Below, in pieces: positions 52,201 through 55,900 of a stretch of DNA of 64,000 bases. The position numbers and the translations under genes are program-made. The stretch covers positions 133,445-197,444 of the forward strand of contig NC_092541.1 of the NCBI RefSeq assembly GCF_037038585.1, given 5' to 3'. Source of the stretch: Patagioenas fasciata (taxonomy: Eukaryota; Chordata; Aves; Columbiformes; Columbidae). The stretch's first letter is position 1, and every line of letters begins with the position of its first letter. The notes beneath the pieces are model-generated. The model saw only the letters and a program-made list of their open reading frames with translations, searched no databases and was not told where the DNA came from.

Positions 52201-52610
52201 CAAAGTCATGTGCAACTCAGCACTACATTAAGCAAGGAGGACTGTGTTTGCTTATAAATCTATCCCTCTACTGCATCAGCAACTATGTCACTGTCTGCCG
52301 GAGGCCACCCATCCTGCAGACAATGAGGCATCGAGCCTTCCAGGTAGTGCAAAACATTAGGGTTAATGGGATGTTTTGTTACAGATACGGTTTCGACACA
52401 GGTCAGTTAGTTCTGTCCATGTCAGGCATGTACAGGACTGGTGAGGGTTCATCTAACCACGTCTTTTGGGTTAATGGGTTAAATGACAGCACATCACCAA
52501 TCACTATCTGACAGCAGGGTCGCTGCAGATAGCATTGGCAGTTTAGTCTATACAACATGCCACTAATAATAAGGATTATTATAGTGCATTGAAAGTGTGA
52601 AGGTACTCAC
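49217..52610 (-). other. MAPT intron between R2' and R3 (no gene found)
   Basis: A 3.4-kb intron with AT-rich (49320-49860) and CpG-rich (51290-51490) parts and A/C-rich tracts (51130-51180) on +. Open frames in the CpG-rich part show no recognisable domain. Confidence 0.82.
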
Positions 52611-52612
52611 AC
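52595..52612 (-). promoter_or_regulatory. Exon 10 donor stem-loop, copy 2
   Basis: On the - strand GUGUGA and UCACAC flank the loop GUACCU, spanning the last exon base and the 5' splice site. The same six-base stem and loop form the regulatory hairpin of human MAPT exon 10, where mutations shift exon inclusion and cause disease. Confidence 0.8.
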
Positions 52613-52703
52613 TGCCTCCTCCCGGGATGTGTTTGATATTATCCTTTGAGCCACACCTGGATTGAACGCTGCTAAAGTCCAACTTCTTATTAACAATCTG
52701 CAC
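52611..52703 (-). CDS. MAPT: MAPT exon 10 copy 2 (repeat R2')
   Basis: Thirty-one codons, phase 0 at both ends, start [19 protein letters not shown] and end [10 protein letters not shown]. It is the downstream copy in the transcript. Compared with copy 1 it has VQIVNK for VQIINK, SRCGS for SKCGS, and one silent change. All repeat hallmarks (Cys, PGGG) are intact. The acceptor is CTACCAAAG and the donor GTGAGT. Since the length is a multiple of 3, it can be included or skipped freely. Confidence 0.97.
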
Positions 52704-52850
52704 CTTTGGTAGCCAGAAAAGAGTCATTGCACGTCACCAATAGCTATCTGATGGCAGCGTCACTGCAGATAGCATTGGCGGTTTAGTGTATACAACATGC
52801 CACTTATTATAAGAACTGTTATAGTGCATTGAAAGTGTGAAGGTACTCAC
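52704..52850 (-). other. 147-bp intron between the two exon 10 copies
   Basis: The intron is made of the donor flank of copy 1 and the acceptor flank of copy 2, as expected from a tandem duplication. It is long enough to be spliced, so both copies could enter one mRNA. It is not obviously short enough to force mutually exclusive use. Confidence 0.9.
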
Positions 52851-52852
52851 AC
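52835..52852 (-). promoter_or_regulatory. Exon 10 donor stem-loop, copy 1
   Basis: This has the same GUGUGA / GUACCU / UCACAC arrangement as copy 2, 240 bp away. Both exon copies therefore keep the human-type hairpin at the donor. Confidence 0.8.
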
Positions 52853-52943
52853 TGCCTCCTCCCGGGATGTGTTTGATATTATCCTTTGAGCCACACTTGG
52901 ATTGAACGCTGCTAAAGTCCAGCTTCTTATTAATAATCTGCAC
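52851..52943 (-). CDS. MAPT: MAPT exon 10 copy 1 (repeat R2)
   Basis: Thirty-one codons start [19 protein letters not shown] and end [10 protein letters not shown]. Human R2 differs at three positions (LDLSN for LDFSS, KHV for KHI). The hexapeptide VQIINK (PHF6*) is unchanged. The acceptor is CTACTAAAG and the donor GTGAGT. In mammals inclusion of this exon switches tau from three to four repeats; here inclusion of both copies would give five. Confidence 0.98.
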
Positions 52944-55900
52944 CTTTAGTAGCCAGAAAAGAGCGTGAGAAACAACATGACCATCTGCAGCTTGACCACG
53001 CGTTATATCACTAAAACCAGGAACCTGTCTTCCAGTGGCAAGGGCAAAGAAGAACCTCTGGCTTGCTGCATAGATTTGTCTACCCATGGGCTAAAATCTG
53101 AGGATGGAGGTGGGCAGGTTACGGCTAGACTGGATAGGCCGGGCAGCCCTGGTTTCCAGGCCACAAACACTACCAAAGAGCCAGCTCAGCCCGTTTTCTT
53201 CCACTGAACAGAACACTCTGGAAGGCACCAGCGGTCTGAGACATCCCCTGCAGAGCCAGTGGAGGAAGGAAGATGGAGCTGAGAGAAAACGGCCTGCTCA
53301 GCCCCCTCTCCCACGCCGCGTCCCCTCCCTCGGACAGACACACAGCCCCGCAGCCCCGCAGCTGCAGCCAACGGGCAAACGGGCGCGGGGGGCTGGGGAG
53401 CAGGAGCCGGGGCTGGGGAGCAGGAGCCGTGTCCGGCTCCATCTCAGAGGCCTCTGAGCTCTGCGCCTGCAGGGCTCAAACTCCCTCTGCAGCTGCTGAC
53501 GGGATGCAGTTCCACGCCTACCGCTTTCTTAACTCCTGTAGAGATCAGATGAAGGAGGCAGCGCTGACCAGCCCCAGATGCTCTATTGCTTACTCTCAAC
53601 GCCACCTTGGGTGGGAGAGCAGCTGGAAAGGGCCTGGTGCCGCAGAGGAACCACCGACCGTGCCAACTCCACCCTCCGGTCCCAAGGCCTCTCTGCCCTC
53701 TCCCCGTACATGCAGATTTTTGTACTAATCAATTAAGTCATTTCCCTTTAGGCCTTGTTTTCCCTATTTGGGTTTCGTAAGGGCAGATGTGCTGGAGTGA
53801 CCCCACACACAGCAGCAGCTGTCGCAGACAACACAGGCGAAGATGGTCCCCGCTCCCTGCCCTGCGTGGACTGGGTTGGCTTCACGACCTCTGCAAGTAC
53901 AAACCAGAGCTAAGTGCGGGTACAAACCAGGCGGCACACAGGCCTGCGCTCCCTGGGCACAAAGCCTGTCTGAAGCACAACGCTCGTGAGAGACAAAGAG
54001 ATGCGGCCCCCTGCAAGAAAGCAGCGTCACATCCCCCTGCGCATGCGGCCCGGACGACACCGAGCTGGCTGAGCCGGGGCACCCCGTCCTGCCCCTCAGC
54101 GCGTCCCGCTGCTGGGGGGGAGCTCCTCGCTGCGCCCCTGCTCTTGAACGTGAGAAGCACCACGGCTGACACATGCCTGCCGCGCCATTTTCCAAGATAA
54201 CGTAATTCTGCAAATCAGGACCCAGTTCTGTTAGGCCAGGCTTTGCCAGAACAGTATTCAGTGATCCAGCAACACTGAGATTGCTCAAACAAAGAAATAC
54301 TGGAAAAGACGTGTCCTGGCTGACTGCTGGTGCCTGTGACCCATGTACCTTTGCTTCCCCAGGCTGGGAATCCAAAATCTGCACAGACAGCAGGCTCCAG
54401 ACCCATCTTCTGGACACCCTGGAACCAGACTTGTGGGACCAGCCTGCAGCCATTCTGCCAAGAGCAGCCTCATGTCCCACAAAACCCTCAACACAACATC
54501 CAGCCATTCTCACCCCCAAAGACCAACGAATTGTTCCAAATTCAGCTGTTCTTACTCCCAGTGACAACAATAAACAACTGAGAGAGAAGCTGACCAAAAA
54601 AAACCCTTGAAAATGGCAGGTTAAAAAGAACAAGCAAACAATTTAACCCATTTACAGTAAACGGAAGGGCTCCTTCTAAAATTCCTGAAAAGTAGTGTTT
54701 TGTGGGTTCAGCAGGAAAACCTTCCGCTTGGCAGGAGGCCTGAGGCCTTGGGCAGCTGGGAGCACACAGGCCAGAGCGTCCCTGCCCCTGCCCCCGGGGC
54801 TGTAGTACAAACCAAATGTGCATGGTCCGGTGAATCACCAGCCAGGGCAAAAACGCACATCAGGAGATGGAAAAGATGGTGAAGAGAAGCCATCTCAAAT
54901 CCTCCTGCCACGCCAAAGTCGAACACTCAGAGCCACAGAGTCAAAGGACGGCATGCGCTGCATGGGAAGGTTTGTCCCGGCTTTGCTGCAGCAGCAGCCG
55001 CACAGGAAGGTCCGCAGGGGGCGTTTCCCCTCGGGGGACGCAAGCACAGGCACGCGGCCATCGAATGTGCACTTCTGTCCATTAACATCTGCGCAAGAGC
55101 CACTGGGCCTTCACCAGCCAGAGGAACCAGGTGCTTTCACGTCTCCACCCGTGCCGCAAGGAGGATTTTATAGAAGCCTCGGGACACGCACAGCGCATCG
55201 GAGCAGCGCGAGAGGCTCAGAGGGGTGCTCAGCAGGCAGCAGCGCAGCTGGAGCCGTGTAACCACGCGCTGCTGCTCCTGGGGCTGCACAGGTGAATTAG
55301 CTCACACCGCTTCCTCACCCAACCCTCCTCTGCTGGGCTTGCGAAATTTAACGAGAGACCCTTGCTCCTAAGCACCTGGAGCATGGAGTTCACTTTGCTG
55401 CTCACGGAGCAGCCTCTCTGCGAGCGAAAAGCGCAAGTGGTTGAAAGGACAACAGGACCACCAGTTCTGGCCATGCCAGACTCCATCATGTAGCAAGACA
55501 GTGCCTGATCGGAGAACAGAATCCAAAATCTTGCCAACAGAGTTGGATCCAAAAATCACAACATTCTGGAAAACATGCTGAGCCTGGGACCCTCGCAGGG
55601 AGGAGACCGCCCTGCCTGCTTGCTACTGAAGCAATGGAGGCAGTGTTGACGGGAACGCTCCGCTCACACCATACAGGATTCAGAAACCCAAGCCTGCGAC
55701 TCCCTAGGGCTGCAGGTCACAATTTGCCCTTCCTAACCGGACACCACGAGGAGATGTCACTGCCCTGGCGGCGAGTCGGTACGCTGACGTGCCACCCCAC
55801 GGAAACCACATCACCAGCTCTCCGCGGGACAGCCGCCCTGCACTAAGCCAGGCAAACAACTTCAGGACAAGCACCCCCCCAGCCAGCCCAAACAAGTCCC

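Follow-up and report, generated by a model that had tools for sequence, protein, structure and literature searches.

A tandem duplication of the R2-encoding exon 10 of MAPT in Patagioenas fasciata, with coding capacity for three-, four- and five-repeat tau

The window, which is the whole 64,000-nt stretch of DNA that we analysed, carries the repeat-encoding exons of MAPT on its minus strand, and this locus was placed in a 9.48-Mb contig (C29) of a 1.45-Gb assembly made up of 359 contigs. The globins of this assembly agree with a bird and possibly a pigeon relative. Beta-globin exon 2 is identical to PDB chain 2r80_B at 72 of 74 residues (best 60 of 121 rows), and for alpha-A exon 2 the chains 3dhr_A and 2r80_A rank first among those of single length, below six engineered human chains of double length, which score twice; 2r80 and 3dhr are pigeon haemoglobin. 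The initial annotation had taken the gene to be MAPT and the duplicated exon to be the exon for the second microtubule-binding repeat (R2), and both assignments were confirmed by matches to the tubulin-binding repeat family PF00418, by matches to structures in the PDB and by the spliced reading frame. The coding features, in transcript order, are as follows.

56046..56311, minus strand, MAPT exon 9, repeat R1 (PF00418, spliced frame)
52489..52963, minus strand, tandem duplication with a period of 240 (repeat search and TRF)
52851..52943, minus strand, MAPT exon 10a, first in transcript order, R2 with KCGS (splice sites, PF00418, PDB)
52704..52850, minus strand, 147-nt intron between exons 10a and 10b (GT-AG)
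52611..52703, minus strand, MAPT exon 10b, second in transcript order, R2 with RCGS (splice sites, PF00418, PDB)
49135..49216, minus strand, MAPT exon 11, repeat R3 (PF00418, spliced frame)
48460..48572, minus strand, MAPT exon 12, repeat R4 (PF00418, spliced frame)
46230..46445, minus strand, MAPT exon 13, coding part, stop TGA (spliced frame)

The duplication consists of a 240-nt direct tandem unit (52489-52723 and 52729-52963, 92% identical, TRF score of 824) and was the sole ungapped direct-repeat family of at least 60 nt reported in a search of positions 46000-63000. When the units were aligned in register, 18 of the 235 sites differed, with 14 differences in the 122 nt of intron, one in the 20 nt 5' of the exons and three in the 93 exon bases; an identity of 92% across 235 aligned nucleotides excludes a chance repeat. 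The first five bases of the 240-nt period are mismatched between the units and mark the duplication junction. Among the best candidates scored in a search of the genome, a 601-base query from the locus was found in one place and a 66-base query covering the intronic hairpin described below only in the two expected copies; the idea that this hairpin is a dispersed element was rejected on that result. A separate perfect two-copy tandem repeat of 20 bp, which is GC-rich, lies at 53389-53429 in intron 9, approximately 450 bases upstream of exon 10a.

Alignment and in-silico splicing verified the proposal that two 93-bp phase-0 R2 exons lie 240 bases apart with intact splice sites, Cys and PGGG. 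Both exons lie downstream of the R1 exon and upstream of the R3 exon, each with an AG acceptor and with the identical donor GTGAGTACC, and the R2 encoded by either contains the Cys and the PGGG. The three differing bases, a count that also agreed with the initial annotation, comprise two that alter residues (I/V and K/R) and one in a silent Leu codon, and the K/R change turns the KXGS motif from KCGS in exon 10a into RCGS in exon 10b. The two R2 copies scored 64.3 and 64.6 bits against PF00418 (cut-off, 27), and each matched human tau R2 in the PDB, with 27 of 30 residues shared in the case of exon 10a and 25 of 30 in that of exon 10b (PDB alignment, the first residue being counted as V). The PDB also holds a solved tau chain with four tandem R2 copies (6cvn chain D), which we take to be a synthetic design made for cryo-EM; MAPT in the present genome is a natural analogue of it with two copies.

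The initial annotation had further held that the gene can encode 3-, 4- or 5-repeat tau. This stands with respect to the reading frame, as in-silico splicing of exons 9-13 at GT-AG junctions left all four combinations (3R, 4R with exon 10a, 4R with exon 10b and 5R) open to the stop codon in exon 13. The distance between the KXGS serines of R1 and R4 is 94 residues in the 4R forms and 125 in 5R, and 5R tau as spliced in silico has three repeat cysteines and the same number of VQI-type motifs. In a genome scan with PF00418, in which 30 candidates were scored and 15 matches were listed (13 above and 2 below the cut-off), so that the counts are lower bounds, there were at least five matches on the contig of MAPT, at least four on C2 and at least four on C10. 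The genes on C2 and C10 are presumably MAP2 and MAP4, to judge from their repeat sequences. Among the matches found, the extra tubulin-binding repeat is peculiar to MAPT.

The five-repeat tau of chicken, which the initial annotation had mentioned as published, is confirmed by later papers in which it is cited. Adult chicken brain is described as having 3R, 4R and 5R tau (PMC5450399, PMC7615684), and five repeats are attributed to chicken and other related birds in PMC8985376, which also gives birds an average of three binding regions per MAP. The serines recognised as 12E8 sites are S262/S356 in human tau and S253/S378 in the longest chick isoform, according to PMC3125162, and the resulting spacings of 94 and 125 are those of the 4R and 5R forms derived here. 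The agreement at 125 indicates that chick tau, like the product of the present gene, has an extra repeat of 31 residues somewhere between R1 and R4. Chicken five-repeat tau is credited in citations to Yoshida and Goedert (2002), and chicken tau is reported with the extra and the normal R2-type repeats in one protein. The likeness to chicken is at the level of protein; the duplication event is presumably shared by chicken and Patagioenas fasciata, and the unit and hairpins may be.

With a probability of roughly 0.8, we consider exons 10a and 10b to be two separately regulated in-frame cassette exons giving 3R, 4R and 5R tau, that is, the bird five-repeat tau system known from chicken. The sequence, the splice sites and the frame were read directly from the window, and the use of the exons in splicing and their expression are inferred. 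The tandem duplication would have copied the R2 exon together with approximately 20 nt immediately 5' of it and 122 nt of the intron that follows; the exonic enhancers and the stem-loop-covered donor would have been carried over with the duplicated unit. Because each 93-bp copy is in phase 0 and an ordinary intron of 147 nt separates the two, either could be included or skipped independently. Skipping of both would result in 3R tau, as would be expected in the embryo, inclusion of one in 4R tau and inclusion of both in 5R tau, in which the second R2-type repeat would add one tubulin contact, one Cys and one VQI-type motif, with a presumable effect on microtubules.

The splicing signals were compared with those of human MAPT, which has one exon 10 where the present gene has two copies. 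In published descriptions, human exon 10 is spliced weakly, contains exonic enhancers and has a donor covered by a stem-loop (PMC2483273, PMC6619747, PMC9977717). In both copies of the present gene, as in human exon 10 as described, the AAGAAG enhancer occupies nt 16-21, G stands at -10 and A stands at +13; a donor stem-loop was predicted in both, as is known for the human exon.

52836..52851, minus strand, predicted stem-loop over the exon 10a donor (123-nt fold, also in the 551-nt fold)
52596..52611, minus strand, predicted stem-loop over the exon 10b donor (123-nt fold, also in the 551-nt fold)

The mean unpaired probability of the donor nonamer in 240-nt windows was 0.18 for both exon 10a and exon 10b, and it was 0.48 for exon 9, 0.23 for exon 11 and 0.76 for exon 12; since the donor of exon 11 is nearly as masked, exon 10 does not stand out by this measure alone. 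As to trans-acting factors, the control of MAPT exon 10 by MBNL in primates is mentioned in PMC12992808. YGCY occurs four times in the 147-nt intron (approximately 2.6 expected from the density in the window) and four times in the 141 nt after exon 10b (approximately 2.5 expected), and there is one GCATG at +51 after each exon copy. Enrichment of these motifs was rejected as a candidate signal, as the counts of YGCY and GCATG lie within chance expectation and the two copies are of common descent.

It is also conceivable, if unlikely, that one copy, exon 10b being the obvious choice, is rarely used or decaying, and that 3R and 4R tau are the main products of the gene. At the two variable residues, exon 10a has I and K, as human R2 does, and exon 10b has V and R; these departures from human R2, both of which fall in exon 10b, make exon 10b the seemingly derived copy. 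Furthermore, no YTNAY branch-point match was found within the 100 nt preceding the exon 10b acceptor, and near it there are TGAC motifs only, whereas CTCAC occurs in the likely branch-point surroundings of exon 10a. However, the TGAC motifs of exon 10b, at -33 and -23, are at usable distances and could serve as branch points (14 of the 20 nt ahead of the acceptor are pyrimidines), and its frame, splice sites and predicted donor stem-loop are intact. The residue changes are also conservative. In the same genome, R2 of MAP2 has V at the first variable site, as exon 10b does, and R2 of MAP4 (L005, about 1501-1593) has RCGS instead of KCGS, with the same K-to-R change. The R2 copies of the fish Notothenia coriiceps, as described, likewise show K to R before the Cys (PMC4815063). 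Thus, both residue changes of exon 10b are of a tolerated kind. The differences between the copies may still bear on how much each is used: A10G lies within nt 7-15 of the exon, a segment that the cited descriptions of human exon 10 link to splicing factors (PMC2483273 / PMC6619747 / PMC9977717), and C22T lies immediately 3' of AAGAAG. These two changes and the branch-point differences are candidate causes of unequal use of exons 10a and 10b, as judged from the sequence.

The likeness of the locus to mutually exclusive exons raises the question of whether inclusion of one R2 copy rules out the other, in which case the gene would give 3R tau and two flavours of 4R tau, with little or no 5R. Tandem duplicated exons are often mutually exclusive, and duplicated stem-loops can compete, as set out in PMC6071210; in the systems described there, the duplication includes an intronic stem-loop, as it does here. 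One such hairpin was predicted in each of the two units.

52735..52780, minus strand, predicted intronic hairpin 1, 46 nt, between exons 10a and 10b (-23.6 kcal/mol for a 52-nt stretch)
52496..52539, minus strand, predicted intronic hairpin 2, 44 nt, downstream of exon 10b (-24.5 kcal/mol for a 52-nt stretch)

The arms of these hairpins are able to cross-pair around exon 10b. The arm pairing A1:B2 was calculated at -25.1 kcal/mol versus -21.6 kcal/mol for A1:B1, and cross-pairing totalled -51.5 versus -48.1 kcal/mol for the summed local folds, with the loop cost left out. However, the minimum-energy fold of the 551-nt region leaves both hairpins local. Nothing forces exclusion here: 93 is 3 x 31, both copies have GT-AG splice sites, and the intron, at 147 nt, is not too short by the minimum length that generally serves as the yardstick. 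The MAPT copies are thus in frame and separable, unlike the mutually exclusive exons described in PMC6071210, and chicken, as cited, makes 5R tau with the same repeat spacing. Strict exclusion is accordingly improbable.

A related and equally speculative idea is that the duplicated cassette (exon, donor stem-loop and hairpin) uses the competing RNA structures that arose from the duplication to choose between 4R and 5R tau. Pairing of hairpin 1 with hairpin 2 would then enclose exon 10b, its acceptor and donor included, and, if this were true, competition of the kind suggested to govern mutually exclusive exons would here tune the repeat number of tau. The 123-nt stretch containing the donor stem-loop and the hairpin was more stable than shuffled sequences at exon 10a (z of -3.15, 1 of 200 as good) and at exon 10b (z of -3.54, 0 of 200), and the fold of the 551-nt region was unexceptional in the same comparison (z of -1.70, 6 of 100). 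Among 9840 52-mers of the window, not sorted by GC, 161 and 121 folded as stably as the two hairpins, so that hairpin stability alone is unremarkable. The 52-nt hairpin stretch differs at eight sites between the copies with similar stability, and in a mutation control, 1.4% and 3.4% of 5000 trials with eight random substitutions placed on one copy reached the stability of its counterpart. One of the eight differences turns G-C into G-U, one shifts a pairing partner and the others fall in loops, bulges and new pairs; compensatory pairing in the hairpin was discarded as an explanation because no base pair was cleanly changed on both sides. An RNA family search of the window gave no match at the gathering score and one sub-threshold match, located outside the duplication. 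It is possible, on these predicted folds, that the intronic hairpins have a role.

An artefact of assembly or haplotype would account for the duplication in the single assembly read, and it is very unlikely in view of the 18 differing sites, of the one and two expected places of the 601-base and 66-base queries among the best candidates in a genome where the locus lies in a 9.48-Mb contig, and of the five-repeat tau published for chicken.

Returning to two separately regulated cassette exons, the initial annotation had regarded both copies as maintained. The lower divergence of the exons than of the introns between the copies speaks mildly for this (Fisher P = 0.039); since residues are altered by two of the three exon substitutions, it need not reflect constraint on the protein. 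The longest identical run between the units is 78 nt, consisting of 46 exon bases and 32 intron bases, the donor included (P = 0.0096 under uniform placement). The low exon divergence and this run, as observed in the two sequences, are compatible with constraint or gene conversion; gene conversion as the specific cause of the run was not retained, being inseparable from constraint around the donor on these two copies. Under an assumed neutral rate for birds, the intron distance translates into about 33 My (18-56). We rejected dating by divergence, as constraint or gene conversion would make 33 My too low. Should the duplication be shared with chicken, the close similarity of the copies would have to be due to constraint or gene conversion.

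As five-repeat tau is known in birds, the present gene represents a further case, one that also gives particulars of the control elements that were duplicated. Among the titles, abstract openings and passages listed from the open-licence literature, none describes duplicated copies of exon 10 in the genomic DNA of a bird. A comparable arrangement is described in Notothenia coriiceps, in which tandem copies of the R2 exon are likewise in phase 0 and, unlike in the bird, number four, giving seven repeats in all, and other teleosts with 5, 6 or 7 tau repeats are listed in the same source (PMC4815063). The fish belongs to a far lineage, and its duplication is therefore probably a separate event. 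The value of the bird exon 10 doubling is thus comparative, the phenomenon itself being known already in birds and fish. Failure of exon 10 choice is given as the cause of some inherited human tauopathies (PMC2483273 / PMC6619747 / PMC9977717), and two near-identical copies with predicted donor stem-loops could provide a natural test of how that choice is made and of how neurons cope with five-repeat tau.

Two further open stretches lie on the minus strand of the same locus. An acidic-rich stretch of 336 codons at 61658-62668, upstream of the proline-rich exons, resembles exon 4a of Big tau in size and place, and this label is an analogy with the large exon 4a described for other birds (PMC9755724). 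A Pro/Ser/Thr-rich stretch at 58716-58985, which is followed by a GTAAGG donor after ACGAAAGCCAAG, is probably the equivalent of MAPT exon 7.
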